Assembly (NCBI GenBank): GCA_002069965.1
Contig: MWCI01000036.1
Span: 1-33,764 of the forward strand
Reading direction: 5' to 3'
Length of the DNA: 33,764 nucleotides
Source: Spirochaetes bacterium ADurb.Bin218
GTDB taxonomy: Bacteria; Spirochaetota; UBA4802; UBA5550
Positions 5,324-21,708 of the stretch are shown in pieces. The first letter of the stretch is position 1; each line of letters begins with the position of its first letter. The position numbers and the translations under genes were made by a program. The notes beneath the pieces are model-generated. The model was not told the DNA's origin, ran no database searches, and saw only the letters and a list, made by a program, of their open reading frames with translations.

Positions 5324-6931
5324 TTAAAGCTCGCCTATTTTCATTATCACTGTTGCTTCATAAGGAGCAAGTGTGAGAGAGAGATTTGTGAGATGCTCAC
5401 GATTTGATCTATGGGTAGAAAGCATTACCCTCCATTGACCTCTTTCATTTATGTGAATCTTTTTTTCTTTTTTTGAGAAATTGAGTGCAATAAAAAATTT
5501 TTCATCTTCGTAAAATCTGAAATATGCAAGAGATCCGTTAAAGCCTTTTATGGCAGCAGAAATTTCACCAACAGCAAGGGCTTTATGTTTTTTTCTGAGA
5601 TGGATCAGGTTTCTGTAGAGATTTAAAATGGAGTAGCGATCTTTCATCTGAGATTTAACATTAATTTTTTTATAGTTGCTATCAACAGGAAGCCATGGTC
5701 TTGTCTCAGAAAAGCCAGCATTCTCTTTAGAATTCCACAGCATTGGAGTTCTGGAACAATCTCTACCTGAATATACAGGCCAGTATCTTTTCCCGAGGGG
5801 ATCAACTATTTCACTTCGTCTTAATCTGGTATTTGTCATCCCAAGCTCTTCTCCATAATATATGAATGGAGTCCCTTTTATAGTGAGTAAAAATACTGCA
5901 GCTACTCTCGCCCTTTTTTCTGAGTCACTTCCCCCAAGAAATCTTGTTCTGCTTCGTGGTTGATCGTGATTTGACAAAACATTACATGGCCATCCCTCTG
6001 GAGGAAGTGCTTTATACCATTTCTTAATACAAGTATAAAATTGTCTTGCACTCCATAATCTATACATAATAGAAAAATCAAAGGCCATATGCAGTTCATC
6101 GTGGCCGTTACCAAGGAATGAAGCAGACAGTTCAGGATCTCCTGGGGGCAAAGTAAAGACTTCTCCAACAGTCATTCTGTTGTCATACTCATCAATAACC
6201 TTGCGAAGTTCTTTGAGATATTGATGAACCTCCGGTCTGTTTCGATCATATTTATGTCTTTCTGGATTAAGAGGCCTGATTGTCCATGGATTATCTCTGA
6301 ATTTTTCATCCTTAACGAACCAGTTAACAACGTCAAGTCTAAAGCCAGCAACTCCTTTATCAAGCCAGAATCTCATCATTTTATAAATTGCATTGCGCAT
6401 ATCACTGTTTCGCCAGTTTAGATCTGGCTGTTCCTTTAAGAAGGAGTGGAGATAGTATTCACCTGTTTCGATATCAAGCTCCCATGCACTTCCCCCAAAA
6501 GCGGATTTCCAGTTGTTTGGAGGAGCCCCATTTTTTCCTTTGCGCCATATATACCAGTTTCGTTTATCGTTATCAGGGGATGAACGTGACTTGATAAACC
6601 ATTTATGCAGGTGAGAGGTGTGATTTACTACCAGATCCATTATTATCTTTATATTCCGTTTATGAGCTTCTTCTATAAGTCTGTCAAAGTCTTCCATTGT
6701 TCCGTATGAGGGATCTATATCATAATAATCAGATATATCATAACCAAAATCATACATTGGAGATTTGTTTATAGGAGAAAGCCAGATTGCCTCAATACCA
6801 AGCCACTGTAGATAATCTAATTTTTGAATTATGCCATTGATATCTCCTATGCCATCGTTGTTACTGTCAAAGAAGCTTCGGGGATATATCTGATATATTA
6901 CGCCACTTTGCCACCATTTATAGTCTTTCAT
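5324..6931 (-). CDS. GH13 alpha-glucosidase / oligo-1,6-glucosidase-like
   Basis: A 535-aa cytoplasmic enzyme of glycoside hydrolase family 13, close to the usual ~550 aa of oligo-1,6-glucosidases and related enzymes. It begins KDYKWWQSGVIYQIYPRSF. Visible conserved regions are DLVVNHTS (region I), GFRLDVVNWF with the nucleophile Asp (region II), TVGEVF with the acid/base Glu (region III) and VLSNHDQPR (region IV). The (beta/alpha)8 barrel is followed by a C-terminal beta domain ending about residue 535. No signal peptide is seen, so it probably acts on imported oligosaccharides or an internal glucoside. Its ATG overlaps the stop of the PHP-glycosyltransferase gene by one base (TAATG), so the two are translationally coupled and probably act on the same glycoside. 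Exact substrate (isomaltose, sucrose, trehalose or other) is undetermined. Confidence 0.92.
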   Translation of the reverse strand: MKDYKWWQSGVIYQIYPRSFFDSNNDGIGDINGIIQKLDYLQWLGIEAIWLSPINKSPMYDFGYDISDYYDIDPSYGTMEDFDRLIEEAHKRNIKIIMDLVVNHTSHLHKWFIKSRSSPDNDKRNWYIWRKGKNGAPPNNWKSAFGGSAWELDIETGEYYLHSFLKEQPDLNWRNSDMRNAIYKMMRFWLDKGVAGFRLDVVNWFVKDEKFRDNPWTIRPLNPERHKYDRNRPEVHQYLKELRKVIDEYDNRMTVGEVFTLPPGDPELSASFLGNGHDELHMAFDFSIMYRLWSARQFYTCIKKWYKALPPEGWPCNVLSNHDQPRSRTRFLGGSDSEKRARVAAVFLLTIKGTPFIYYGEELGMTNTRLRRSEIVDPLGKRYWPVYSGRDCSRTPMLWNSKENAGFSETRPWLPVDSNYKKINVKSQMKDRYSILNLYRNLIHLRKKHKALAVGEISAAIKGFNGSLAYFRFYEDEKFFIALNFSKKEKKIHINERGQWRVMLSTHRSNREHLTNLSLTLAPYEATVIMKIGEL

Positions 6932-9573
6932 TATAAAAGACCTGTATCCTTTAATAATTTTTCTATTATGTTTGTTGCAGTAAAATCCTTTGAACGCAAA
7001 AGCGCAGATTGACTCATCTCTGTTCTTTTGTTTTTAAGGAAGAAGTTTGTTATCACCTCTGCCATTTTTTCTCTTGTATTGACAAGATATCCTGATTTTT
7101 CGTTTTCGATTATATCCTTGGGTCCCTTTGTATTATATGATACAACAGGGCATCCGCAACTGAAGGCCTCCACAATAACATTGCCGAAGGTATCAAATCT
7201 TGAGGGTAGTATAAGAATGTCCGCTGCTGAATATAGTTCTGGAAGTCTGTCGTGGGAAACCCAGCCTGTGAATTTTGCCTCTGGCAATAAGGATCTCAGT
7301 TTTTCTTCCTCTGGGCCTTTGCCTGCAATTACAATTTCTAAATCAGGAATCTGCTCTTTCACTTTTGAATATATAAATGGCAGATCCATTATCCCTTTTT
7401 CTTCGCTAATCCTGCCAACAAAAAGCATTATCTTCTTTTGGTTATCAATTCCAAAGGCTTCCTCTTTTGAGATATTACGCATGGTAAATTTTTCATCAAC
7501 CCAGTGAGAAGTAAGTCTAACATCTGTTTTTTTGAATTCCATGTCAGGTCCACTGAACCATCTCTTTTGTTCTTTATTTAGCACCAGTACTCTATCGTAA
7601 GATCTATAGAAACCTCGTAGTATTCGTCTCAGTCTACTCATTGCAGGTTGAGAAAATTTTAGGCTGTCTCTGGCAAAGGTAATCCAATCTGTGTGCACAA
7701 AAAAGAAAGCAGGAACAGTATAGGCAGATTTGAGGTATATTGAAATAAGCCCCATAGGCCCCTCTGTTGAGCATAAGATTCTATCGTATTCACCTTTGAG
7801 GAATTGTTTTTGAATATCAAGAATATTTGGAATTCTTATAGGTTGCTGTTGATAAAAAGGTGGAGTATATACAGCCACAGGTTTTATGACTATTAGATTA
7901 TCCTCTGATTTAAGAGAATCACTGCAGGTAAGTATATCTATTGGCAGATCCCTTTTTCTTATTTCATAGAGCATCTGCTGCAGGAACATGGATACTCCAT
8001 TGCCATCGTCAAATGTATCTGTAAGCCATAGCATTCGTTTTGGGTAGTGCATATAATTTAGTTTTTCTGAAAAGGCGTTGAGGAGTTTTCTTGCGCTATA
8101 CATTACCTTACTTGATGAATAGTTTGCAGCAGATATTACGGTAGAGGCAAGAAAAGGGAAGGTTAGACCATCAAGAAATTCAGGTGCATTGAACTTTTGC
8201 TTTTTGTCTTTTTTATTGCCGGCTTCAAATATCTTGCGTATATTTGCTGGAATTTCTAAGCTGTTGATTAGCTCCTCTGCGCTATTGAATTTGTACTCAT
8301 TGTCTTGTGATAGCTTTTCAAGTTTTTTATTTAGCCTTTCAAACATGAGATTGAAAAGGGTGCTGTGTATTGTCTCTATGGATTTTTCAAAGGAGGTTGC
8401 CATCTTGTCTGGCTCTTTTTTCCTTGTGTTTGCCATTGAAACAGCTTCCTTAAATACAGGGCGATAATCTTTGGGTATCATTATTTTTTTTATAAAGTTA
8501 GGGGACTCCCCCTGTAGGCATTGATGAAAGAGAGTAAGAAAGTTAACAGTGAGCTTATGCCTTTGAAGTTCTGAAAAGCCGTTTATAATCAAAAAAGATA
8601 AGAGCTTATCCTTTGCATCTCCTTTGTGTAAAAGCAGTCGCAAGAGGCCTGGATCTTTCATGTTCATGACAATCTGACAGAAATAATCAAGAAAGGCGAC
8701 AGTCATTTTTTCTGTATTGTTATATCCACCAAAAGGAGCGCTATCCCCATCGAGGAGAGCTTTTAATGTTAGTTCGCTAATTTTTGTTGTTTTAATCTTT
8801 TCTTTTAAATTTTTGACATAGAGCTTGGTGCCTGTAAGACCTGTAAAGATTCCCATGTGAGAGTCAGAGCCGCCATACATTTTCTTGCGTTGAGTATCTC
8901 TACAGAAGAATGAAGATTTTATGCAAAATTTTTTTTCAAATCTTTCAATTGACTCAGGTGTCATGGATTCTATCCATCGTTTTACAAGAAGGTTCTGCCA
9001 TGTATCCCTTTGACCGTTTATGACTTCAAACCTTTCAAAAACAAGAGTCATCTTGTCAAAAAAATCCAGAGAAAGATTGCTATTGTCCTTATAGTGATAA
9101 AGGGGATGAGCCCATATTGTTGGTATTTCATTTTCAAGTGCATATTCTTGGAATCTGTATATGTCCTGTCGAAATTTAAATAGCTTTTCTTCTTGAGCAG
9201 GTGTAAAACCATAGGCAAGAACGTGAATCTTTGCATCAAAATCAGGCACAGTGCAACTGAACTCAGCACCGCTTAATATATCATATCCTTTATCCTGAAG
9301 ATAGTAGCATGATCGTGCATTATTGTGGTTTGTTACAGTGAAGGAGTTGCATCTGTGATCCTCAAGTATGGATATAAGCTTTTCTGGTTCAAGCCATGTT
9401 TCTGGTATATTGAGCATTCTTCCAATTATCTCATCGGGCTCACTGCTGTTTTTATCGTGACAGTGAAGATCAATAGTGAGGCTTTCTTCTTCAGGGAATC
9501 TCAGTGACTGCTCATAGTTAAATACTGAAATCTCTCTGTTAATTCTTTGAAAAAAGGATTCCTTGTAATTCAT
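6931..9573 (-). CDS. PHP phosphoesterase - GT4 glycosyltransferase fusion
   Basis: An 880-aa soluble protein with two recognisable enzymatic halves. Residues ~33-250 form a PHP-type metal phosphoesterase domain with the expected ligands: DLHCH (H37, H39), TNHNN (H83), GAEFSC (E104), WAHPLYH (H156) and GGSDSH (D237, H239). Residues ~255-535 are helical and unassigned. Residues ~535-880 form a GT-B fold family 4 glycosyltransferase (FVGRISEEKG; SRFDTFGNVIVEAFSCGCPVV, the C-terminal nucleotide-sugar site with the E..F.CG..VV signature). GGAG lies 6 nt upstream of ATG 9573. It is the first gene of a two-gene unit with the GH13 enzyme. A plausible reading is that a sugar phosphate is made by the transferase and dephosphorylated by the PHP domain, giving a glycoside that GH13 later splits; this is inference only. 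Confidence 0.85.
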   Translation of the reverse strand: MNYKESFFQRINREISVFNYEQSLRFPEEESLTIDLHCHDKNSSEPDEIIGRMLNIPETWLEPEKLISILEDHRCNSFTVTNHNNARSCYYLQDKGYDILSGAEFSCTVPDFDAKIHVLAYGFTPAQEEKLFKFRQDIYRFQEYALENEIPTIWAHPLYHYKDNSNLSLDFFDKMTLVFERFEVINGQRDTWQNLLVKRWIESMTPESIERFEKKFCIKSSFFCRDTQRKKMYGGSDSHMGIFTGLTGTKLYVKNLKEKIKTTKISELTLKALLDGDSAPFGGYNNTEKMTVAFLDYFCQIVMNMKDPGLLRLLLHKGDAKDKLLSFLIINGFSELQRHKLTVNFLTLFHQCLQGESPNFIKKIMIPKDYRPVFKEAVSMANTRKKEPDKMATSFEKSIETIHSTLFNLMFERLNKKLEKLSQDNEYKFNSAEELINSLEIPANIRKIFEAGNKKDKKQKFNAPEFLDGLTFPFLASTVISAANYSSSKVMYSARKLLNAFSEKLNYMHYPKRMLWLTDTFDDGNGVSMFLQQMLYEIRKRDLPIDILTCSDSLKSEDNLIVIKPVAVYTPPFYQQQPIRIPNILDIQKQFLKGEYDRILCSTEGPMGLISIYLKSAYTVPAFFFVHTDWITFARDSLKFSQPAMSRLRRILRGFYRSYDRVLVLNKEQKRWFSGPDMEFKKTDVRLTSHWVDEKFTMRNISKEEAFGIDNQKKIMLFVGRISEEKGIMDLPFIYSKVKEQIPDLEIVIAGKGPEEEKLRSLLPEAKFTGWVSHDRLPELYSAADILILPSRFDTFGNVIVEAFSCGCPVVSYNTKGPKDIIENEKSGYLVNTREKMAEVITNFFLKNKRTEMSQSALLRSKDFTATNIIEKLLKDTGLL

Positions 9574-10888: not shown

Positions 10889-12172
10889 ATGGAATTTAAT
10901 TATAATGTTATAGAGATTTTTACCAGTGAGGATGTAAAATATCAGGGTAAGCCCATTTCAACTGCAATAATTGACTGTGTCCGCAATTCAAAAATTGCAG
11001 CAAGATGTATTGTAAGCAAGGCTATTGCTGGGTGCTATGAAAATGGCGAGGTAGCGTCAAATAATATTGAATTGCTTTCTTATAATATGCCTCTTAAAAT
11101 TGAAATTATATTGCCTTCAGCAGAGCTGGATATGTTGCTTCCCAAAATAGAGGAGTTAGTTGTGGACGGTATCATCGCAGTAGAAGATATGGCAGTGAAA
11201 ACTCATAGAACCACTTCTAAATTGATACCATCATATCTCAGAGTGAAAGATGTTATGACAGCAAATCCAATTTGTGTAACAGAATCTACTACTGCAGGTG
11301 AGATATTAACTATATTGCTTGGAGCAAATTTTAATGTGGTTCCAGTGGTTGATTCCAATAAAAGGCCAATAGGGATTATAACGCAGGGGGATCTTATAAA
11401 AAAAGCAGGAGTCCCAATACATCTTGGACTTCTGGCAGAGTTTGAGAAAAGTAAAGTAGAACAATATCTTGAGGGCGTTGCATCAAAAAAGGCAAAGGAG
11501 TTTATGAGTTCGCCAGTTAAGACGGTTTTTGAAGATAAGCTCCTTTCAGAGGCTGTTGACAGGATGATCGCCAATAATCTCAAGCGGATGCCAGTTGTTA
11601 ATAAAGAAGGTCTTATTACAGGGATGTTATCAAGGCTTGACGTCTTCAAAATAATTACAGCAAAGACTCCGGACTGGAAAAGATTTAAGAGTCAAAATGT
11701 AAAGGTTTCAGATATAAAATATGTCAGAGATATTATGGAACGGGATATTCATACAGTGAAAAAAAATACACCAGTGGATGAGATAATCCGCTTTATAGAT
11801 TCAAATGAAATTGAGCATGTTGCTGTTATTGACGATAGTGGTCATCTCGTAGGTATTATATCAGACAGAGATATAGTTGGTTTTTTTGCAGAGCATAAGG
11901 CTGGTTTAATAGATTATCTCCTTGCCCTCTTGCCTCTAAGTGAGATATCAAAGCGCCATGAAGATTTGATAAAGAAAACAAAGATGAAAATAGCAGCAGA
12001 TGTAATGAAAAGTGATTTGATAACAGTAAGTGAAGAGGCAAGAATAGATGAAGCAATTAACCTCATGGTAAAACATGTTATTAAACTTTTGCCTGTTGTG
12101 GATGAAAATAATATTTTTAAAGGCATGATAAGTCGTGATGCTCTTTTAAGGGCTGGATTACATAATAATTAA
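10889..12172 (+). CDS. DUF190 (PII-like) plus four CBS domains
   Basis: A 427-aa soluble protein. Residues ~1-105 match the DUF190 ferredoxin-like/PII-type fold (FTSEDVKYQGKPISTAIIDC; CIVSKAIAGCYENGEV), a family often found next to crcB. Residues ~112-427 contain four CBS motifs in two pairs: LRVKDVMTANPICV, AKEFMSSPVKTVF, VRDIMERDIHTV and AADVMKSDLITV, each with the usual G(I/M)(I/L)(T/S)..D end. The combination suggests a nucleotide- or energy-sensing regulator that may act on the fluoride channel or another partner. GAGGGAGAG stands before ATG 10889. It is in the riboswitch-controlled operon between crcB and a HAD phosphatase. Confidence 0.88.
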   Translation: MEFNYNVIEIFTSEDVKYQGKPISTAIIDCVRNSKIAARCIVSKAIAGCYENGEVASNNIELLSYNMPLKIEIILPSAELDMLLPKIEELVVDGIIAVEDMAVKTHRTTSKLIPSYLRVKDVMTANPICVTESTTAGEILTILLGANFNVVPVVDSNKRPIGIITQGDLIKKAGVPIHLGLLAEFEKSKVEQYLEGVASKKAKEFMSSPVKTVFEDKLLSEAVDRMIANNLKRMPVVNKEGLITGMLSRLDVFKIITAKTPDWKRFKSQNVKVSDIKYVRDIMERDIHTVKKNTPVDEIIRFIDSNEIEHVAVIDDSGHLVGIISDRDIVGFFAEHKAGLIDYLLALLPLSEISKRHEDLIKKTKMKIAADVMKSDLITVSEEARIDEAINLMVKHVIKLLPVVDENNIFKGMISRDALLRAGLHNN

Positions 12173-12180
12173 ATGATCTT

Positions 12181-12834
12181 ATGACATATAAAAAATTTGA
12201 TAACATTTTTTTTGATTTAGATGGGACTTTGACAGATTCAGCACCGGGCATAATTAATTCAATAGTTTATGCTCTGTCTAAATATAATATATTTCCTGAC
12301 AGAAAACTGCTATATAAGTTTATAGGCCCTCCTCTAAGAGAGTCTTTTTCTAAATATTATGGATTTTCTTCTCAACAGGCAGAGGAGGCTGTTGCTTATT
12401 ATAGGGAATATTTTTCTGAAAAGGGGATTTATGAGAACAATTTGTATGAAGGAGTGGAGCATCTTCTCAAAGAGTTAAATGTTCGTGGCTGCAATCTATT
12501 TCTTGCCACCTCCAAGCCTTATGAATATGCCTTGCAGGTTTTAAAAAATTTTAAGATCTATAATTATTTTAAAGCTATTGGAGCAGCCTCCTTTGATGGG
12601 AGCAAGACAAAAAAGAGCGAAATTCTTAGATCTCTCATAGATGATATAGGAAATCTTGATTTAACTAAGTCAGCTATGATTGGAGATAGGCTTTACGATA
12701 TTGAAGGAGCTAAGTCTGTTGGTATTTCTTCAATTGCTGTTTTGTATGGATATGGGGATGAAGAAGAGTTAAGACAGGCTAACCCTGATTTTATGGTCAA
12801 AAGTGTTGCGGAGTTATTACAACTTTTGCTTTAA
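12181..12834 (+). CDS. HAD-family phosphatase (Gph/PGP-like)
   Basis: A 217-aa cytoplasmic HAD hydrolase. Motif I FFDLDGTLTDS carries the nucleophile and general-acid aspartates (~D12, D14). A helical type-1 cap follows (residues ~20-90), then motif II (ATSKP, ~108-112), the motif III lysine (SKTKKSEIL) and motif IV (MIGDRLYDIEGA). It is nearest to phosphoglycolate phosphatase and similar nucleotide/sugar phosphatases, but the substrate cannot be read from sequence. ATG 12181 is only 8 nt after the DUF190/CBS stop, so it is probably co-transcribed with the fluoride operon. Fluoride inhibits many phosphatases and enolase, which could explain the linkage, but that is inference. Confidence 0.88.
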   Translation: MTYKKFDNIFFDLDGTLTDSAPGIINSIVYALSKYNIFPDRKLLYKFIGPPLRESFSKYYGFSSQQAEEAVAYYREYFSEKGIYENNLYEGVEHLLKELNVRGCNLFLATSKPYEYALQVLKNFKIYNYFKAIGAASFDGSKTKKSEILRSLIDDIGNLDLTKSAMIGDRLYDIEGAKSVGISSIAVLYGYGDEEELRQANPDFMVKSVAELLQLLL

Positions 12835-12935
12835 GTTGATACTTTTGTGTTTTTAAAATTTTTCAAATATGTAAAATATCTATGTTTAATTCATTTAGCT
12901 CACCTTAATTGTTGCACTAAAATAGTAATTTTCTT

Positions 12936-12968
12936 AATCTGCCTTTAGTATAAAAATTTAAGCAGATT
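12936..12968. promoter_or_regulatory. Inverted repeat AATCTGC...GCAGATT before chemoreceptor gene
   Basis: AATCTGC (12936-12942) and GCAGATT (12962-12968) form a perfect 7-bp inverted repeat with a 19-nt AT-rich centre that contains TAGTATAAAAAT, a plausible -10 region. The right arm abuts the ribosome site GAGGGG of the downstream gene. It could be an operator or a weak translational hairpin. The rest of the 12835-12978 gap holds no other feature that I recognise. Confidence 0.35.
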
Positions 12969-12978
12969 GAGGGGATTT

Positions 12979-14457
12979 ATGTATAATTTTATAAGGCGCA
13001 AATATTTTAAGGCCCTTTCTTTTTATCTTAGAGAGTATTCTCAAGGTAGAATTTATGGTGAGATTAATTCGGAAGAGTTCCCTACATCTATTCGCTGGCT
13101 TGTAGCAGGTATTGAAACCCTGAGGAGAAAGATAAAAGAATTTTACGTTGATATAGGAGTTTCTGTTGCAAGAATAAAAAGCTCAACCAGAGAGATGAAT
13201 TTTTCATTTGAGAAAGCAATGATAAATATTAACGAGACGATTTTATGCAGCGAGCAGGCTCATGGGATTGCTAATGAATTGGTTGGTGCTTCTGAGCTGG
13301 CAGCAAGGAGTCTAAAAGAGCTTGAATGTGAGGCTGAAGATATAGTTAAGTTTGCCGATGAAATACATGAAGAGACTCAAGCTACAAGTCTACTTGCAGA
13401 TGATGCCTTTAAGGCCATGGAGGAGGCAAACGCTTCTTTTAAGGAACTTGTTGATGCTTCAAAAATAATGGCAGAAAAAGTAAAACTTTTGACAGAAAAT
13501 ACAAAAGGCATAGATGCTCTTCTGTCGACTATTCAGGATATTGCAAGTCAGACAGATATGCTGGCTCTGAATGCTGCAATAGAAGCTGCTAGAGCAGGAG
13601 CTTATGGAAGAGGTTTTTCAATAGTTGCTGATGAGATACAGAAACTTTCTGGTGAGGCAACAGCAGCTGCTGACTCTGCAAATAGACTTCTTGTAGAAGT
13701 AAACAAGGGGATATATGACACAGCAGAGTTTATGAAGCGTGGTGAAGAGATAATACAGAGGGGCTCTCATTCCCTTGGTGCTGTGAAAAATTTTGTTTCT
13801 GATTTTAAACTCCGCAGTCTTCTAATTGAAGAGAAAACAGGAAATTCAAAAGCATTGGCGTTAACGCAAAAAAAAGCAATAACTGATGTTATAAAATTTT
13901 CTGAGCAGACAGAACAGAAGAGTAAACTCTCGGACCTTCAGTCAAAAAGAGTAAGTGAGTTAATGGTTAATCAAAGAGAACTTTTTGAAAGTATTTTTAC
14001 TATGGGGAAGTATCTTGATAAAATTGCTGATGATTTGTCAATTACGCTTGGTAGCTTGCAGATAGTTGATATAAATTCGGTATCAGGCAAAGTTAAAATT
14101 GAAATTGAAAAGATAATCAAAGAACTAAAATCTCTTGCCTCGGTGTTAGCCTCAGAGCTTAGCCCGCAATTTCATAGAGTAAAGTTGCAAGCTTTGCTTG
14201 ATAGATTTGGCATACTTGAGGCTGCATGGACTAATGATCTTGATGGAAGATTTATTCTGTCGATACCTCCAGCAGGTATAGCAAATGCCTCAAGTCGCGA
14301 TTGGTTCCTTAAAGCAATAAAGGGAGAAATTTTTATTTCAGATGTGTACATTTCAGCCATCTCAAGAGGGCCTTGCGTTACCATTTCTCTTCCTCTTGTA
14401 TTTAAGCAAAAAATAGATGGGGTTTTAGGCGTAGATTTAAGGATTGTAAAACAATAA
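12979..14457 (+). CDS. Soluble chemoreceptor with C-terminal Cache-like domain
   Basis: A 492-aa protein with no membrane helix in any part. Residues ~35-400 form a long MCP-type coiled coil whose hairpin tip (DMLALNAAIEAARAGAYGRGFSIVADE, near 190-216) is standard for contacting CheA/CheW. Residues ~405-492 (GILEAAWTNDLDGRFILS ... SSRDWFLKAIKGEIFISDVYIS ... GPCVTISLPLVF ... GVLGVDLRI) look like the membrane-distal half of a Cache ligand domain, normally periplasmic and N-terminal. Here it is cytoplasmic and C-terminal. The start is ATG 12979 behind GAGGGG; an in-frame TTG at 12967 is inside the ribosome site and is rejected. The gene directly precedes the flagellar operon. Confidence 0.85.
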   Translation: MYNFIRRKYFKALSFYLREYSQGRIYGEINSEEFPTSIRWLVAGIETLRRKIKEFYVDIGVSVARIKSSTREMNFSFEKAMININETILCSEQAHGIANELVGASELAARSLKELECEAEDIVKFADEIHEETQATSLLADDAFKAMEEANASFKELVDASKIMAEKVKLLTENTKGIDALLSTIQDIASQTDMLALNAAIEAARAGAYGRGFSIVADEIQKLSGEATAAADSANRLLVEVNKGIYDTAEFMKRGEEIIQRGSHSLGAVKNFVSDFKLRSLLIEEKTGNSKALALTQKKAITDVIKFSEQTEQKSKLSDLQSKRVSELMVNQRELFESIFTMGKYLDKIADDLSITLGSLQIVDINSVSGKVKIEIEKIIKELKSLASVLASELSPQFHRVKLQALLDRFGILEAAWTNDLDGRFILSIPPAGIANASSRDWFLKAIKGEIFISDVYISAISRGPCVTISLPLVFKQKIDGVLGVDLRIVKQ

Positions 14458-14543: not shown

Positions 14544-14975
14544 ATGTTTGAAGGAAGCAGCATGATGGGCACAAATTATATTCTGGAAAAATCCCTTGAT
14601 GTGGAATCCCTCAGGAAAAAGGTCATAGCAGATAACGTCGCCAATGTAGATGTGCCTCATTTTAAGAGGAGTGAGGTGAATTTTGAAAGTGAGCTTAAAA
14701 GGGCTCTGGATAACAACAAATACACTAATGAAAATAGAGTTCCAGCCCTTATCACAGACAATAGGCATATTCCATTTTTTGTTGAAAGGGATATAAAGTC
14801 TGTTCAGCCGAGGATAAATTTAGATTACTCCACTTCAATGCGAAATGATGGCAATAATGTTGATATAGAAAAGGAGATGGTTGATGCAGCCAAGAATAAA
14901 ATGAGATATGATGCTTTGGTGGCTGCTCTTAACCATAATTTTAAAATGATTAAGCTTGCAACAAGAACAGCATAA
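14544..14975 (+). CDS. flgB: Flagellar basal-body rod protein FlgB
   Basis: A 143-aa rod subunit of the periplasmic flagellum, exported by the flagellar type III system. It shows the bipartite rod-protein pattern: an N-terminal helix with RKKVIADNVANVDVPHFKRSEVNFE (the ANVDTPGYK-like signature), a variable centre and a C-terminal helix VDIEKEMVDAAKNKMRYDALVAALNHNFKMIK. Length is close to the usual ~135-140. CGGGAGG precedes ATG 14544. It is the first gene of the operon; flgC begins 17 nt after its stop. The 86-nt leader contains no promoter that I can call with certainty. Confidence 0.95.
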   Translation: MFEGSSMMGTNYILEKSLDVESLRKKVIADNVANVDVPHFKRSEVNFESELKRALDNNKYTNENRVPALITDNRHIPFFVERDIKSVQPRINLDYSTSMRNDGNNVDIEKEMVDAAKNKMRYDALVAALNHNFKMIKLATRTA

Positions 14976-14991
14976 GGCAGAGAGGTAGAAT

Positions 14992-15459
14992 ATGGGGATG
15001 TTTGATAGTTTTAATATATCAGCCACAGGTCTTTCAGCTCAAAGACTGAGAATGGATGTAATAAGTGATAATATTGCCAATGCCACTACAACAAGAACTC
15101 CATCAGGTGATGGACCTTATGTTCGCAAAAGAGCAATTTTTGAGCCAATGAATATCAGACCAAGGTATAAATCCCCTCTTGTTCCTGAAAGAATAGACAG
15201 TGGTGTTGGCAGAGGTGTTAGAGTGGTAAAAATTGAAGAGGACAGAAGCCCCTTTAGACTTGTATATGATCCATCTCATCCAGATGCAATACAAACAGGT
15301 CCAGAAAAGGGTTATGTTCGTATGCCAAATGTCAATATAGTAACAGAGATGACAGATCTAATCTCTGCATCGAGATCTTATGAGGCAAATGTAATGCTTG
15401 TGAATAACTCAAAGAGTATGTTTGCTAAGGCGCTGGAAATAGGCAAAACAGGGGCTTAA
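14992..15459 (+). CDS. flgC: Flagellar basal-body rod protein FlgC
   Basis: A 155-aa rod protein. The N-terminal rod signature is SATGLSAQRLRMDVISDNIANATTTRTPSGDGPYVRKRAIFE. The C-terminal helix VNIVTEMTDLISASRSYEANVMLVNNSKSMFAKALEIGK is the conserved flagellar rod/hook C-terminal motif (MI.A.R.YEAN). It is slightly longer than enteric FlgC (~134 aa) because of an insertion in the middle, as in other spirochaetes. GAGAGG lies before ATG 14992. It forms the proximal rod with FlgB, FlgF and FliE. Confidence 0.96.
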   Translation: MGMFDSFNISATGLSAQRLRMDVISDNIANATTTRTPSGDGPYVRKRAIFEPMNIRPRYKSPLVPERIDSGVGRGVRVVKIEEDRSPFRLVYDPSHPDAIQTGPEKGYVRMPNVNIVTEMTDLISASRSYEANVMLVNNSKSMFAKALEIGKTGA

Positions 15460-15474
15460 AAGTGAGGTATAATC

Positions 15475-15618
15475 ATGTTTAGAGAAAGACAACTAAGAGA
15501 GGATGTTCACGTAACTCACAATCTCTCAACAAAGGTTGATATAAAAAAGACAGATCATCTTCCAAAATCAGGGGAATTTGTCTCTTTTAACATGAAGAAT
15601 AGCAGAGAATTTAAATAA
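15475..15618 (+). CDS. Small ORF (47 aa) between flgC and fliE, unknown
   Basis: ATG 15475 is preceded by GTGAGG at a 7-nt spacing and opens a 47-codon frame ending TAA at 15616-15618. It starts 15 nt after flgC and ends 13 nt before fliE, so it fills the gap precisely like a real operon member. The product is highly polar and basic (MFRERQLREDVHVTHNLSTK...; many K, R, D), has no signal peptide or membrane segment and does not resemble a protein I know. It might be a flagellar chaperone or regulator, or a spirochaete-specific small protein. Existence is well supported by the signals; function is unknown. Confidence 0.65.
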   Translation: MFRERQLREDVHVTHNLSTKVDIKKTDHLPKSGEFVSFNMKNSREFK

Positions 15619-15631
15619 AAAGGAGTGTAAA

Positions 15632-15958
15632 ATGATAACAAATGTTTCTTTTAATGGCAATGTAATAAGAATGAATGCAAGTGATCCTTTGCATTATACA
15701 AATGACGAGCCTCTCAAAAGGGATGTAGATGATGTCTCTGGATCCTTTGCTGATATGCTGAAAAGTGCTGTAGCAAAGACAAATGATCTTCAGGTGGATG
15801 CAGAAACTCTCATGAAGAGAATGGTTGTTGAGCCAGAGTCTGTTGATATACATCAGGTAATGATCGCCACACAAAAAGCAGAAATAGCATTGGGACTTAC
15901 AAAGGCTGTGAGAGATGGTGCAATTAATGCATACCGCGAACTTATGAATTTAAGATAA
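15632..15958 (+). CDS. fliE: Flagellar hook-basal body protein FliE
   Basis: A 108-aa protein that joins the MS ring to the rod. The C-terminal signature is present: FADMLKSAVAKTNDLQVDAETL ... VDIHQVMIATQKAEIALGLTKAVRDGAINAYRELMNLR, close to the family motif DVHDVMIA.QKA...L...V.V.NK...AYQEIM.M. The AAGGAG ribosome site precedes ATG 15632. It is followed by a strong inverted repeat before fliF, so the rod genes may form their own transcript. Confidence 0.95.
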   Translation: MITNVSFNGNVIRMNASDPLHYTNDEPLKRDVDDVSGSFADMLKSAVAKTNDLQVDAETLMKRMVVEPESVDIHQVMIATQKAEIALGLTKAVRDGAINAYRELMNLR

Positions 15959-15966
15959 TTTCTGGA

Positions 15967-16001
15967 TTTAAGGTGCAAATGCTACAATTTTGCACCTTAA
16001 A
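15967..16001 (+). terminator. Perfect 13-bp hairpin between fliE and fliF
   Basis: TTTAAGGTGCAAA (15967-15979) is perfectly complementary to TTTGCACCTTAAA (15989-16001) with a 9-nt loop. The stop of fliE is only 9 nt upstream. The following GATTTTTAG is a short U-rich stretch, weaker than a textbook terminator, so partial termination or mRNA 3'-end protection is likely. A TTGACA at 16024-16029 and a TATTAT at 16053-16058 follow, but their 23-nt spacing is too long for a normal promoter. Confidence 0.55.
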
Positions 16002-16095
16002 TATGCGATTTTTAGTAAATTATTTGACATTTTTTTATTTCTTTTGTAGAGGTATTATGTCGCATTAGATTTTCATCTCTGGAGGCTTTGACATT

Positions 16096-17793
16096 ATGGA
16101 TTTTTTGAAGAAACTTTTTGAACAGGGAAAAGAGATATACAATAAGCTCTCTCGAACAAAGAGGATTATAATTGCTGTGGTGGTTGTTGTTGTAATTGCA
16201 TCTTTCGGCATATTGTTCACAGTATCCAGCAGCCAGCCAAATATATTGCTCTTTGAGCAGCTTTCCTCAGATGATTTTGGTCAGATTACCAAAAAGTTAG
16301 ATGAAATGGGCTATAAATACGAAACAGCAGGGACAAATTCCATCTATGTCAAACCGCAGGAAAGGCCAATTATAGTAACTCGACTTGCTCAGGAGAATAT
16401 GCTGCCAAAGGGTATACCTGGCTTTAAGCTCTTTGATACAACAAGCTGGACAGAAACTGACAGAGAACTGGATGTCAAATATATGAGAGCTCTGCGCGGT
16501 GAGATTCAGCGACATATTGAATCTCTGCAGAACATAGAAAAGGCAGATGTTGAAATAGCAATGTCTGAGGATAGCCTTTACTCAGATAAGGACACGCCTT
16601 ATACAGCAGCTGTAACAGTGCATCTTGCTCCAGGATATGAAAAGCTCTCCACAAAGGAAATAAAAGGTATAGTCTATTTAGTATCTCGTGCTGTGGGTCC
16701 AAGGCTAAAACCAGAAAATGTTACAGTTACCGATAATACAGGAAAGATAATTTCAGATTTTGATGATGAATTTGAAAATGAGAAGAAAGAATATACAATA
16801 ATAGAATTCAGGCGTAAAATTGAGGAACAGGCCAGAGTCAAGCTTTTAAAAGAGATAAGAGATGGTCTTGAGAGGATATATTCATCAGATAGAATTCAGA
16901 TAGTTCGTCTTAATATGGATTTTAACTGGGATAAGATAACAGAGGAACAGACAGAGCATACACCAATTACAATGGTTCCAGATGATCCAAAAACTCCATA
17001 CTCAGAGAGAAAGGTACAGGACTCCCTTGTAATTTCAGAAAAGAGCACCGAGGAGAATTTTAAAGGCCATGGATGGAACCCTCAGGGGCCTGCTGGCACA
17101 GAGGGAAACACTCCTCCGGGATATAAGGCAAGTGATGACCAGTATGCACAGTATGATAAAAAAGAGAATATTAAAAATCATGCAATTAATAAGACCATAA
17201 GGAATATTGCCAGAGATCCATACGACATAACACGTGTTAGTGTTGCCATTGCAATTGATGGGCAGCAGGATTTACCAAGAAAGGCCGACGGTGAATATGA
17301 CCTTGATCCAACAAAAAAACCCGTTCAAATACCGCTAACTGAAGATGAACTCCGCAAGGCAGAAAATATAGTAAAAAAGGCAATAAATTTTGATGAGGCA
17401 AGAGGGGATCAGGTCGCTGTAGAAAATATAATGTTTGATAGATCGGCATACTGGAACTCAATTCGAGAAGAATATAGAAAAAAAGAGCAGCTTAAGATGT
17501 TGCTCCTTGCCTCTTTGATAGGCCTTGTTGCACTTTTTGTTGGATTTATATTGTTCCGTGCTATTCAAAAAGAACTGGAGAGAAGAAGAAGAGCCAGAGA
17601 AGAAGCTCTTGCTCTGGAACAACAGCGTATGCGTGAAGCAGCTCTCCGAGCAGCAGAAGAGGAGGGTATTGACGTTGAGCTCTCTCTTGAAGAAAGGGCT
17701 CGACTTGAACTGCAACAGAGTGCTCTGCAGCTTGCAAAAGAGCGTCCTGATGATGTTGCGCAGCTTCTCAGGACATGGCTTGCTGAGGAGTAG
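16096..17793 (+). CDS. fliF: Flagellar MS-ring protein FliF
   Basis: A 565-aa inner-membrane protein forming the MS ring. Membrane helices are at ~24-44 (IIIAVVVVVVIASFGILF) and ~456-476 (MLLLASLIGLVALFVGFILF). Between them is the YscJ/FliF ring-building domain, with LPKGIPGFKLFDTTSWTETD and RALRGEIQRHIESLQNIEKADVEIA, and the FliF-specific domain with the proline-rich disordered part (HGWNPQGPAGTEGNTPPGY). The C-terminal ~70 residues are charged and end in PDDVAQLLRTWLAEE, the helix that binds FliG. Length equals the family norm. ATG 16096 is preceded by CTGGAGG. It is followed by fliG after 77 nt, in which an independent promoter is visible. Confidence 0.97.
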   Translation: MDFLKKLFEQGKEIYNKLSRTKRIIIAVVVVVVIASFGILFTVSSSQPNILLFEQLSSDDFGQITKKLDEMGYKYETAGTNSIYVKPQERPIIVTRLAQENMLPKGIPGFKLFDTTSWTETDRELDVKYMRALRGEIQRHIESLQNIEKADVEIAMSEDSLYSDKDTPYTAAVTVHLAPGYEKLSTKEIKGIVYLVSRAVGPRLKPENVTVTDNTGKIISDFDDEFENEKKEYTIIEFRRKIEEQARVKLLKEIRDGLERIYSSDRIQIVRLNMDFNWDKITEEQTEHTPITMVPDDPKTPYSERKVQDSLVISEKSTEENFKGHGWNPQGPAGTEGNTPPGYKASDDQYAQYDKKENIKNHAINKTIRNIARDPYDITRVSVAIAIDGQQDLPRKADGEYDLDPTKKPVQIPLTEDELRKAENIVKKAINFDEARGDQVAVENIMFDRSAYWNSIREEYRKKEQLKMLLLASLIGLVALFVGFILFRAIQKELERRRRAREEALALEQQRMREAALRAAEEEGIDVELSLEERARLELQQSALQLAKERPDDVAQLLRTWLAEE

Positions 17794-17801
17794 TTTTTAA
17801 T

Positions 17802-17830
17802 TTGACAAAACTTAGTATCATGACGATAAT
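17802..17830 (+). promoter_or_regulatory. Sigma-70-type promoter upstream of fliG
   Basis: TTGACA (17802-17807) and GATAAT (17825-17830) are separated by exactly 17 nt. This is a perfect -35 and a five-of-six -10 at optimal spacing. It sits in the fliF-fliG gap, 40 nt before the fliG start, so switch and export genes could be transcribed separately from the rod/MS-ring genes by the housekeeping sigma factor. Start of transcription would be near 17837. Confidence 0.6.
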
Positions 17831-17870
17831 TAATGTAATTTTGTGATTACAGGCAGGGTGAGCGGATAAA

Positions 17871-18887
17871 ATGCATCAGTCAAAGAAGACTCAACTAACA
17901 GGTCGTCAGAAGGCTGCTATATTTCTTGTTTCCCTTGGATCTGATGTATCTTCTGAAATATTTAAACATCTCCGTGAGGATGAAATAGAGCAGCTTACCT
18001 TTGAGATTGCCCGTCTTGATAAAATTGAACCTGACGACAAAGATCGAGTCTTGCAGGAATTTCAAGAAATGATGATGGCCCAGGAGTTTATATCTCAAGG
18101 TGGTATAGACTATGCCCGCGATGTTCTTGAAAGAGCCTTAGGTACTCAAAAGGCCATTGACATAGTAAATAGGCTCACTTCTTCTTTGCAGGTTAGGCCC
18201 TTTGATTTTATAAGAAGGACTGATCCGAGCCATTTGCTTAACTTTATTCAGGGGGAACATCCTCAGACAATTGCACTCATTCTTGCCTATCTTGATCCTC
18301 AAAAGGCGGCGTCAATCCTTGCTGAATTGCCACATAATGTTCAGGCGGATGTTGCCCGTCGTATTGCAGAGATGAAGAGAACTTCTCCAGATGTACTTCG
18401 TGAGGTTGAGAGGGTTCTTGAGAGAAAGCTTTCCACTCTGGCCAGTGAGGATTTTACTCAGGCTGGAGGTATTGATGCAGTTGTAGAAATTCTCAATCAG
18501 GTGGACAGAGGAACTGAAAAGATAATCATAGAGGCCCTGGAAGAGGAAGATCCAGAGCTTGCAGAAGAGATTAAGAAGAGAATGTTCGTATTTGAAGACA
18601 TCGTTCTTCTTGATGACCGCTCTATACAGAAGGTTTTGCGTGAGGTGGATTCTCAGGAACTTGCTAAAGCTCTTAAGGGTGTTGATGCTGAGGTTCAGGA
18701 AAAGATCTTTCGTAATATGTCCAAACGTGCTGCACAGCTGTTGCGTGAGGACATGGATTTTATGGGTCCAATAAGGCTCCGTGATGTTGAGGAGTCACAG
18801 CAAAAAATTGTTAATATAATAAGAAAGCTTGAGGATGCTGGCGATATAGTAATTGCAAGAGCTGGCGAGGAGGAATTAGTTGTCTAA
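17871..18887 (+). CDS. fliG: Flagellar motor switch protein FliG
   Basis: A 338-aa rotor protein. The N-domain (TGRQKAAIFLVSLGSDVSSEIFKHL) binds FliF. The middle domain holds the EHPQTIALILAYLDP motif that contacts FliM. The C-domain (residues ~235-330) carries the torque helix with charged residues (FEDIVLLDDRSIQKVLREVD) that interact with the MotA/MotB stator. Length matches the family. The start is ATG 17871, behind the promoter described. The gene overlaps fliH by 8 nt. Confidence 0.98.
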   Translation: MHQSKKTQLTGRQKAAIFLVSLGSDVSSEIFKHLREDEIEQLTFEIARLDKIEPDDKDRVLQEFQEMMMAQEFISQGGIDYARDVLERALGTQKAIDIVNRLTSSLQVRPFDFIRRTDPSHLLNFIQGEHPQTIALILAYLDPQKAASILAELPHNVQADVARRIAEMKRTSPDVLREVERVLERKLSTLASEDFTQAGGIDAVVEILNQVDRGTEKIIIEALEEEDPELAEEIKKRMFVFEDIVLLDDRSIQKVLREVDSQELAKALKGVDAEVQEKIFRNMSKRAAQLLREDMDFMGPIRLRDVEESQQKIVNIIRKLEDAGDIVIARAGEEELVV

Positions 18888-19806
18888 GCTTGTATTTAAA
18901 CCCGGAGAGATTCAACAGATTACTTCTGTAAAGCAGATTGAATTGCCTGCTAAATATCAAAAAAATCTCCTTGAAACAGAGGAGTATAATGAGTTTGAGG
19001 TTGATGAGGAAGGCAATCCTATAGATGTATATCGCGGTCCGTCCATTGAGGAGATGGAGGCTGAGCTTGAGAGATACCGCAGGGAAACAGAAGAAGAAGT
19101 TCGTCAGATGATTGAGCAGGCAAAGAAGCGAGCTGCTCAGATAGAAGAGGAAGGCAAGGCAGCAGCTTTTGCTGAGCTTGAAAAGGTGAGAGAACAGATA
19201 AAAATTGAGAAGGAACGCCATCTTGCAGAAATTGAACGTGAAATTGAAAGAAGTAAGTTTGAGGCAGAGAGAATAATCCTTGAGGCAGAAAAAAGGGTAT
19301 CTGAGATTGAACATGACGCTTACATGAAGGGCCACGAAGCAGGTAGAGAGGAGGGCTATAAGGAAGGTCAGGCAGAGGTAATGAGACTCATTGACAGGCT
19401 TGGAACAATTGTATCCTCTGCTGTTGATATAAGAGATGATATAATCAAATCATCAGAAAAGATGATGACAGAGATGATCTTGATGATTGCTCGAAAGGTG
19501 ATTAAAGATGAGATTGTTGAGCGTCGTGAGGTAGTTATTAACAACATAAAAGAAGCCATTAAGAAAGTTAAAGATAGAGACAGAATTGATATAAGGGTTA
19601 ACTTTGCAGATCTCGATATGACAACTGCTCATAAAGACGAACTTATAAAGATGATGGAATCTCTCAAGAAGGTCAATATCTATGAAGATTCTCGCGTTGA
19701 GAGAGGAGGCTGTATAATTGAAACAGATGTTGGAGCAGTGGATGCTCGAATTTCAACGCAACTTGATGCAATAGAAGAGGCTATTAGAAACACAAGCACT
19801 CTGTGA
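18880..19806 (+). CDS. fliH: Flagellar assembly protein FliH
   Basis: A 308-aa protein that regulates and tethers the export ATPase FliI. A charged coiled coil rich in E, K, R and A covers residues ~60-170, and the C-terminal FliH/YscL domain follows (MMTEMILMIARKVIKDEIVERREVVINNIKEAIKKV). The last part (ERGGCIIETDVGAVDARISTQLDAIEEAI) is the conserved HrpE/FliH motif. The start is a TTG at 18880 inside the fliG end, with GAGGAGG just upstream, giving translational coupling. It is longer than enteric FliH (~235 aa), as usual in spirochaetes. Confidence 0.93.
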   Translation: MSKLVFKPGEIQQITSVKQIELPAKYQKNLLETEEYNEFEVDEEGNPIDVYRGPSIEEMEAELERYRRETEEEVRQMIEQAKKRAAQIEEEGKAAAFAELEKVREQIKIEKERHLAEIEREIERSKFEAERIILEAEKRVSEIEHDAYMKGHEAGREEGYKEGQAEVMRLIDRLGTIVSSAVDIRDDIIKSSEKMMTEMILMIARKVIKDEIVERREVVINNIKEAIKKVKDRDRIDIRVNFADLDMTTAHKDELIKMMESLKKVNIYEDSRVERGGCIIETDVGAVDARISTQLDAIEEAIRNTSTL

Positions 19807-19808
19807 GA

Positions 19809-19831
19809 AAATCCGGATAATCTCCGGATTT
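19809..19831 (+). other. Perfect hairpin between fliH and fliI
   Basis: AAATCCGGA (19809-19817) and TCCGGATTT (19823-19831) make a perfect 9-bp stem with the 5-nt loop TAATC, starting 2 nt after the fliH stop. It is not followed by a run of T, so it is more likely an mRNA processing or stability element or an attenuator than a terminator. The fliI ribosome site AAGGAG follows at once. Confidence 0.5.
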
Positions 19832-19857
19832 ATAATTTAGCTTAAGGAGACATAATA

Positions 19858-21249
19858 TTGATAAGAATACTTCCACATGAAAAGATAGATATACTCTCTA
19901 AGTATAAAGAGATAGTAGAAGATGTTGAGGTGATAAAATTTTCTGGCAATGTGGAAAGGATTGTGGGCCTTACTATTGAATCTGTTGGGCCTGCTGTAAA
20001 ATATGGTGATCTCTGCAGAATAAAGACTGGTGAAAGTCAATATCTTTATGCTGAGGTTGTTGGCTTTAATCGCAATAGAGTTATACTTATGCCTATAGGA
20101 GACATGAAAGGGGTTGTGCCAGGTGCTGAGGTCTATGCTGTAGGCACTTCTCTCATGGTGCCTGTAGGGAAAGAGTTACTTGGCAGAGTTATTTCTGGAA
20201 TAGGTAAGCCTCTTGATGGAAGAGGTGAGATCTTTACCCGTGCAAAATATCCTGTTGAGGGGAGGGAAATTAATCCCCTAAACAGAACTGTTATATCACA
20301 GCCTCTTTCTGTGGGAATAAGGGCTATAGATGGGCTTATTACTGTTGGCAGAGGTCAAAGGATTGGCATTTTTTCTGGTTCTGGTGTGGGAAAATCAACA
20401 CTCCTTGGAATGATCGCCAGATACACAGATGCTGATGTCAATGTAATAGCTCTCATTGGAGAGAGAGGCCGAGAGGTTAAGGATTTTGTCGAAAAGGAAC
20501 TGGGTGCAGATGGACTCAAACGCTCAGTGGTAGTTGCTGCAACATCAGATCAGCCTCCGATGCTTCGTCTAAGGGGTGCATTTCTTGCTCATGCAATTGC
20601 AGAGTATTTTCGTGATCAGGGAATGGCTGTGAATCTACTTCTGGATTCTGTGACAAGGTTTGCAATGGCACAAAGGGAGGTTGGCCTTGCTGCTGGTGAG
20701 CCCTCTGCTACAAGGGGATATCCCCCTTCTGTATTTTCAATGATGCCAAGGCTTCTTGAAAGAGCAGGCACAAGCAATACAGGTGGCAGTATAACTGGTT
20801 TTTATACTGTTCTTGTTGAGGGTGATGATATGAATGAGCCTATTGCAGATGCAGCCAGAGGTATACTTGATGGCCATATAGTTCTTGATAGAAAATTTGC
20901 AAATAAAGGACATTACCCTGCAATAAATGTTTTGGCCTCTGTATCCAGGTGTATGAAGGATGTTGTTGATCCAGAGCACCTTAAGGCTGCCTATAGATTC
21001 AGGGAGTTATTGGCTGCCTATAGCGAGTCTGAAGATTTAATAAATCTTGGAGGATACGTAAGAGGTGCAAATCCAACTGTTGATAAGGCAATATCCATGA
21101 TAGGTCAGATGAATGAATTTTTGCGACAGGGGATATATGAGCATGAGACCTTTGATGGAACAAAGTCAAGGTTAATTTCAATGATGGCAGAAGAGGAAAA
21201 GCCAAAAACTCGTCAGAGGCAGCAGGCAACTTTTGCAGGTGTAAGGTAA
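19858..21249 (+). CDS. fliI: Flagellum-specific export ATPase FliI
   Basis: A 463-aa F1-beta-like hexameric ATPase that powers early flagellar export. It shows Walker A (GIFSGSGVGKSTLLGMIARY, ~175-194), a Walker B region (VNLLLDSVTRFAMAQREVGLAAGEP, a very conserved FliI/YscN block), and TGFYTVLVEGDDMNEPIADAARGILDGHIVLDRK. The start is a TTG at 19858 preceded by AAGGAG; the first in-frame ATG is far inside. fliJ follows after 9 nt. Confidence 0.98.
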   Translation: MIRILPHEKIDILSKYKEIVEDVEVIKFSGNVERIVGLTIESVGPAVKYGDLCRIKTGESQYLYAEVVGFNRNRVILMPIGDMKGVVPGAEVYAVGTSLMVPVGKELLGRVISGIGKPLDGRGEIFTRAKYPVEGREINPLNRTVISQPLSVGIRAIDGLITVGRGQRIGIFSGSGVGKSTLLGMIARYTDADVNVIALIGERGREVKDFVEKELGADGLKRSVVVAATSDQPPMLRLRGAFLAHAIAEYFRDQGMAVNLLLDSVTRFAMAQREVGLAAGEPSATRGYPPSVFSMMPRLLERAGTSNTGGSITGFYTVLVEGDDMNEPIADAARGILDGHIVLDRKFANKGHYPAINVLASVSRCMKDVVDPEHLKAAYRFRELLAAYSESEDLINLGGYVRGANPTVDKAISMIGQMNEFLRQGIYEHETFDGTKSRLISMMAEEEKPKTRQRQQATFAGVR

Positions 21250-21258
21250 AGTTAAGCT

Positions 21259-21708
21259 ATGAAGCGCTTTCAGTTTAAATTGCAAAAGCTCCTTGATTTG
21301 AGAGAGGCAAAGGAAAAGGAAATTAAAAATGAGTTGATGAAAGTCCTTTCTGAGCAAAACAGGGAAAGGAATTTTCAGCATGAACTAAATGAGAAGATAG
21401 CAGAGTATGAAGGTAAGCTCTCCGAGATGCAAAAAAAGGGAGTTTTTAATCCAGCAGAGGCAATGGCTATTTTACGATTTGCTGATGTTTCAAGGAATGC
21501 AATAGTTGCATCTGAAAAGAGAGTCCAGGCCTTAGAGCCAGAGGTTCAGAGAATAAGGGAGAGGCTTGTTGTTGCCTCAAGGGAAAAGAAGGTTGTAGAA
21601 AAGCTCAAGGAACGCAAACTTGATGAATATAACTATGAGCTTAACAGAGAAATATCAAAAGAAAACGATGATATGAATCAGAAGATCTACCACAAAAAGA
21701 TAATGTGA
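21259..21708 (+). CDS. fliJ: Flagellar export chaperone FliJ
   Basis: A 149-aa protein, almost wholly a charged two-helix coiled coil (MKRFQFKLQKLLDLREAKEKEIKNEL..., ...KVVEKLKERKLDEYNYELNREI). The N-terminal pattern F.F.LQ.LLDLRE..E and position directly after fliI identify it as FliJ, the central stalk that activates the FliI hexamer. Called FlbA in Borrelia. The stop TGA overlaps the ribosome site of the next gene. Confidence 0.88.
   Translation: MKRFQFKLQKLLDLREAKEKEIKNELMKVLSEQNRERNFQHELNEKIAEYEGKLSEMQKKGVFNPAEAMAILRFADVSRNAIVASEKRVQALEPEVQRIRERLVVASREKKVVEKLKERKLDEYNYELNREISKENDDMNQKIYHKKIM

Follow-up and report, generated by a model that had tools for sequence, protein, structure and literature searches.

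Among the sensors that prokaryotes expose outside the cell, Cache domains are described as the largest superfamily; PMC4822843 counts 78% of them as confidently extracellular and two families, YkuI_C and Diacid_rec, as principally intracellular. The outputs of these two families are c-di-GMP enzymes or transcription regulators (a Cache domain accompanies the EAL domain in YkuI), and MCPs account for 30 of the 1274 Diacid_rec proteins (PMC4822843). The histidine kinase KinD of Bacillus subtilis has a double Cache sensor whose distal module was solved with pyruvate. In the amino acid receptors PctA, Tlp3 and CtaA the Cache sensor is extracytoplasmic, N-terminal and double, and in YkuI the Cache domain is C-terminal. 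Receptors of the TlpD type are soluble, and in them the sensor follows the ascending arm of the MCP as the last domain; PMC12871147 describes this sensor as a zinc-binding four-helix CZB domain and places a PAS domain at the N-terminus.

The window (the whole 33,764-nucleotide stretch of DNA that we analysed, from contig MWCI01000036.1 of Spirochaetes bacterium ADurb.Bin218) encodes a chemoreceptor, here called the window protein, that combines parts of these systems. It resembles TlpD in being apparently soluble and in the position of its sensor, but the sensor is a Cache domain and the N-terminus is a short segment. It shares the fold of the distal module with PctA, Tlp3 and CtaA, whereas its Cache is single; it is an MCP, unlike KinD; and although it has a cytoplasmic Cache in common with YkuI_C and Diacid_rec, those are other Cache families.

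A chemoreceptor that ends in a Cache domain

The features of the locus are listed in Table 1. The receptor gene starts with an ATG that has a ribosome-binding-like gagggg just upstream, and the MCPsignal match of its product (E = 3.1e-25) scores 89.4 bits against a cut-off of 34.6. The C-terminus matches two Cache profiles, dCache_1 (PF02743; residues 420-489, E = 6.5e-6, 26.3 bits) and MCP-like_PDC_1 (residues 436-489, E = 9.4e-5, 23.2 bits). Both scores fall short of the curated cut-off, which is 45 bits for the first profile and 27 bits for the second. Four homologues exceed the dCache_1 cut-off (L047, 54.6 bits; L048, 48.7; L049, 45.4; L068, 52.7) and two fall below it (L046, 39.7; L050, 40.0). 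The match covers positions 75-152 of the 240 in the profile, and in the MCP relatives it never extends beyond 14-153; the window C-terminus has room for one module, not for the two of dCache_1. At E ≤ 1, Pfam found no CZB domain and no PAS family in the protein, with Cache families matched instead (PAS and Cache share a fold). It also found no HAMP domain there, and in L068 only HAMP_N3 at E = 0.024.

Table 1. Features of the receptor locus, in window coordinates
Feature	Position	Strand	Extent	Basis or comment
Hydrophobic stretch upstream, in the receptor's frame, closed by TAG	12835..12948	+		chance or lost-anchor remnant
Chemoreceptor gene, without membrane helix	12979..14457	+	492 aa; stop codon within range	ORF, Pfam, hydropathy
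N-terminal segment, where relatives have membrane helices	12979..13083	+	residues 1-35	alignments; perhaps a degenerate HAMP-like piece (weak)
Descending arm of MCP coiled-coil hairpin	13084..13590	+	residues 36-204	full-length model
MCPsignal match	13402..13803	+	residues 142-275	Pfam PF00015
Hairpin tip	13591..13611	+	residues 205-211	full-length model, alignment
Ascending arm	13612..14103	+	residues 212-375	full-length model, alignment
Single Cache domain, C-terminal	14104..14454	+	residues 376-492	AlphaFold2, structure matches, Pfam
Pocket stretch (R440, W442, F443, Y457, S459, C466, D486)	14296..14436	+	residues 440-486	invariant in rows with letters; mapped on PctA, KinD
flgB, flgC, fliE, fliF, fliG, fliH, fliI, fliJ	14544..21708	+		Pfam; context, not conserved partner

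The predicted fold is that of a distal Cache module

The AlphaFold2 model of residues 376-492 (pLDDT 84.4, pTM 0.79) has two helices followed by a sheet with one crossing helix, which is the PAS-like sheet with preceding helices of solved Cache domains; where Cache domains have one long N-terminal helix before the sheet, the model shows two, 377-391 and 396-410, with a break between them. Eighty-three PDB chains match this model at E ≤ 0.001. By VIA-align 2 the best of them is KinD (4jgo_B; Z = 16.1 over 114 residues, 2.1 Å), followed by Mlp24, CtaA, Tlp3, PctB, PctC, PctA, WalK and DctB with Z of about 14-15.5. Where the matched protein has a double Cache, the alignment falls in its first module (66-187 in KinD, 61-181 in PctA, for example). 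A profile of six C-terminal domains searched against the PDB gave a similar set: Tlp3 (1.1e-5), Bacillus velezensis McpA (1e-4), KinD (7.5e-4) and PctA (0.007). The full-length model, made with 7 sequences, is poor; it has helices at 36-128 and 134-206 with pLDDT mostly 55-86, the Cache region is under pLDDT 50, and the placement of the Cache on the hairpin is not given by it.

The original prediction, made from the letters of the DNA, had placed Cache features in about 85 residues after the MCP coiled coil and had named structure prediction as a check. All the motifs that it cited are present and the predicted fold is a Cache fold, like those of KinD, PctA, Tlp3 and CtaA; the domain is longer than stated, at about 100-117 residues (376-492). 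By model and alignment, then, the C-terminus of the window protein is a single Cache domain of the distal-dCache_1 kind. Its extracytoplasmic location, usual for Cache domains, is absent in this protein, which has no membrane helix, but a cytoplasmic site does not exclude membership of the superfamily, because two Cache families are principally intracellular (PMC4822843).

A family with a conserved sensor and a conserved tip

The homologue search that the prediction had proposed found the same architecture elsewhere. After removal of repeats (L052-L054 repeat L047, L048 and L050) there are 23 distinct members, spanning Spirochaetota and Clostridia, and in all 23 the MCP hairpin comes first and the Cache is C-terminal. 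One member, L051, runs into the end of its contig and is kept in the counts, so that columns missing there are given out of 22. Left out of the 23 are two divergent MCPs with a different pocket, L071 (1495-3087, minus strand) and L072 (1486-3090, minus strand). Both have N-terminal membrane helices, and their C-terminal Cache exceeds the Pfam cut-off, with 60.2 bits in L071 and 47.9 bits in L072.

Matches at 1e-20 occur in 4 of 59 genomes of relatives, the window genome included, and the C-terminal domain matches at 1.9e-42 or better in the same four genomes from a sample of 392 in the phylum; counted at the order level, this is 4 of 46. Altogether 13 of the 392 phylum genomes matched: four with the MCP-Cache family, eight with the enzyme fusions described below and one with an ordinary N-terminal dCache receptor (L043). 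Six loci came from a scan of named genomes: Spirochaetia UBA5763 and UBA5550, Spirochaetota JPAS (G026), Clostridia SKW22, Bacillota FC6 and Anaerobacterium chartisolvens. Within the class of A. chartisolvens, 391 genomes yielded 16 with the domain, every match being 8e-39 or better. Among 247 genomes from the order that includes the clostridial genome G712 there were 5, these being the new members L069 and L070, L068, and the other-type receptors L071 and L072. Scanning viral contigs yielded no further sequences. In the window genome itself the C-terminal domain weakly matches five other places. Two of them (C24 and C30) stand beside an MCPsignal match but were rejected as C-terminal Cache domains, since by their coordinates they lie upstream of it, in the usual N-terminal order; no MCPsignal match was found at the other three.

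Identity to the window protein is unevenly distributed along the receptors. Around the tip (residues 176-236) the 24 aligned relatives are 43-59% identical, and in the Cache domain the family is 46-58% identical (29-30% in L071 and L072), while the arms are only 7-24% identical; 29 of the 98 residues from 395 to 492 are invariant across the members. Tip motif and Cache core are separated by 209 residues in the window protein and by 207-211 in all 23 members. Because the Cache and the tip stay conserved while the arms diverge, we conclude that selection maintains the sensor and the kinase interface at the tip. The C-terminal cytoplasmic Cache is a feature of the family, and solubility is a rare feature within it.

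The pocket and its candidate ligands

Residues without variation in any row that has a letter in that column (22 or 23 of the 23 members) include H399, E414, W417, N419, P430, G433, I434, N436, R440, W442, F443 and S454, and then Y457, S459, A460, I461, P465, C466, T468, P472, G481, G484 and D486. We placed PctA residue numbers on the alignment from the positions given in PMC10104139, which names Y121, R126, W128, Y144 and D173, states that R126 contacts the carboxyl group of the ligand, and reports that the equivalent of D486 contacts amine ligands in amine sensors. In this alignment R440 corresponds to R126, W442 to W128, Y457 to Y144 and D486 to D173, and F443 stands opposite Y129. Two positions differ in 23 of 23 members: that of Y121 is Ile (I434), and that of D146, part of the published amino-acid-sensor motif, is Ser (S459). 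Only three of the five dCache_1AA positions (Y121, R126, W128, D146 and D173) thus have their counterpart, in R440, W442 and D486. In the alignment with KinD, R440 stands opposite R131 (Ala in the R131A entry) and S459 opposite a Ser, and no KinD equivalent of W442 or D486 was found. By their entry titles, PDB structures of the KinD sensor exist with pyruvate and with R131A.

Because R440 matches both R126 of PctA and R131 of KinD, and KinD was solved with pyruvate, a carboxylate ligand is favoured, and we suggest, more cautiously, that it may be a small metabolite with a carboxylate group, be it pyruvate, some other organic acid or an amino acid that is bound differently from usual. With such a ligand the receptor would follow the metabolic state of the cell and not the nutrients outside it. 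The retained D486 counts against an organic acid, and the missing equivalents of W442 and D486 count against KinD as a model. The near-invariant pocket would predict one ligand class for all members.

Two other readings of the pocket have to be weighed. In the first, the ligand is a true amino acid, and the Cache is a single module that branched off from the amino-acid sensors and moved inside the cell. The four PctA residues R126, W128, Y144 and D173 are kept, and the best fold matches include PctA, Tlp3 and CtaA; the uniform Ser and Ile at the D146 and Y121 positions tell the other way. A standard amino acid is spoken against by the loss of D146, while the retained D486 fits either way. We regard this reading as unlikely. 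In the second, somewhat less probable still, the Cache has lost small-molecule binding and serves as a structural or protein-binding module, for dimerisation or partner docking. Two of the amino-acid-sensor positions are lost, as just described, and the invariant residues could also serve a partner; yet the invariant R440, W442, Y457 and D486 align with ligand contacts of PctA and KinD.

Soluble and anchored members

Only two of the 23 members are free of membrane helices, the window protein and L068, from the clostridial genome G712. The other 21 (L046-L051, L055-L067, L069 and L070) have the same hairpin-Cache order, pocket and spacing, but differ in having one or two N-terminal membrane helices, with no room for a periplasmic sensor. 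The highest 19-residue hydropathy in the window protein is 1.34 (0.47 within residues 1-108), as against 1.9-3.5 in the anchored relatives. In soluble and anchored forms alike no further membrane helix stands between the MCP arm and the Cache, which must therefore lie in the cytoplasm.

The two soluble proteins are each other's best pairwise match, at about 34-35% identity, and form one clade (support 100/99) on long branches, in a tree that was made without L051, that is not rooted for a history of loss or transfer, and in which long-branch attraction could help to join the pair. A third soluble member was not found in 20 genomes of the family of G712. Most simply, the soluble form arose by a single loss of the N-terminal anchor, followed by transfer between phyla.

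The prevalence of anchors raises the matter of whether the true gene of the window protein has one too, encoded upstream of 12946 and either cut off by a base error in the assembly or reached by read-through in the cell. The open frame of the receptor starts at 12949, after a TAG at 12946-12948, and upstream of this stop the same frame holds 37 uninterrupted codons for rather hydrophobic residues (19-residue hydropathy up to 1.84), beginning right after the stop of the preceding gene (12832-12834). When this AT-rich spacer was shuffled 2000 times by dinucleotides, the receptor frame reached a value as high in 198 cases, and any plus-strand frame did so in 518. A profile-free comparison of the stretch with the N-termini of 23 anchored sequences found no significant likeness (best E = 0.1), the ribosome-binding-like site and ATG come after the TAG, and L068, which comes from a different phylum, shares the soluble N-terminus and has, in its upstream region, several stops and no comparable hydrophobic stretch. 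We consider a hidden anchor very improbable. The hydrophobicity may be due to chance or to a remnant of a lost anchor, with a base error at the TAG possible. Correcting the start thus gave no anchor inside the open frame, and the stretch beyond the TAG is at chance level.

Gene neighbourhood

The receptor gene lies between a gene for a HAD-type phosphatase (12181-12834) and a run of flagellar genes, as had been noted, and the first of these is called as flgB from its position and a weak Pfam match (17.9 bits, under the cut-off of 20.7). With regard to a possible operon with the flagellar genes, the scanned stretch holds 6 promoter-like sites where chance predicts 6.1. This placement is not conserved: reading of ORFs, rather than a family search, showed no flagellar operon beside the gene in G712 and G002 (20 kb each) or at L050 (10 kb), so it gives little support to the prediction. 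The neighbourhood in G002 contains another MCP and CheW-like and response-regulator-like genes. That the receptor sets flagellar gene expression or assembly, and not chemotaxis, would suit the shared strand, the gap of 86 bases between its stop and flgB and the lack of a terminator-like site in the scanned stretch, but with the tip conserved and no flagellar neighbours in the other three genomes we give it the least credence of the alternatives.

Several other genes in the window drew our attention. A conventional receptor with N-terminal sCache_2, HAMP and MCPsignal is encoded at 3562-5280 (plus strand). Overlapping genes at 533-2296 and 2244-3434 (plus strand), for a protein ending in HATPase_c_2 and for a CBS-SpoIIE phosphatase, are likely to be a regulatory pair. 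At 10889-12172 (plus strand) a DUF190 domain is joined to four CBS matches, and at 6931-9573 (minus strand) there is a glycosyltransferase whose first 500 residues have no Pfam match at E below 0.03.

Enzymes with a C-terminal Cache domain

The searches also found HMGL-like enzymes of the homocitrate, isopropylmalate or citramalate synthase kind with a C-terminal Cache domain by Pfam (L037, L038, L040 and L044), and further likely enzyme-Cache fusions judged by length and motif position (L039, L041, L042 and L045). The MCP-like_PDC_1 scores of the enzyme fusions are 47.9-54.8 bits against the cut-off of 27. In the synthase fusions the Cache is likely to be an allosteric, cytosolic domain. We found nothing in the open-access literature on a Cache domain combined with isopropylmalate synthase.

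A probable cytosolic chemoreceptor

We think it probable that the window protein works in the cytosol as a chemoreceptor for a small molecule inside the cell. Counted against this are the scores of its own Cache domain, which are under the cut-offs, the rarity of soluble members and the in-frame hydrophobic stretch upstream. With 23 MCPsignal and 11 CheW-domain matches in the window genome, the kinase pathway is likely to be present and the receptor able to join an array. By analogy with other MCPs the receptor would dimerise, and its two C-terminal Cache domains would occupy the kinase-distal end of the hairpin, like CZB in TlpD. Binding of the ligand would shift the ascending helix, and at the near-fixed distance of 207-211 residues such a shift would alter the tip and thereby its control, via CheW, of CheA.

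Receptors that are soluble and have their sensor at the C-terminus, such as TlpD, were already known, as were Cache families located in the cytoplasm; the combination appears to be new. We did not find an MCP with a single Cache of the distal-dCache_1 type at its cytoplasmic C-terminus in the open-access literature searched, although an earlier mention may exist. A wider reading, which we hold only tentatively and with less than even confidence, is that the Cache was turned inward in this receptor lineage, giving a single C-terminal module with a KinD-like carboxylate pocket and receptors of metabolic state, and that, together with the enzyme fusions in the same order of spirochaetes, this points to Cache as a more general intracellular metabolite sensor. 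As a compact, partly soluble system, the family could allow Cache ligand binding and long-range signalling to be studied without a membrane.
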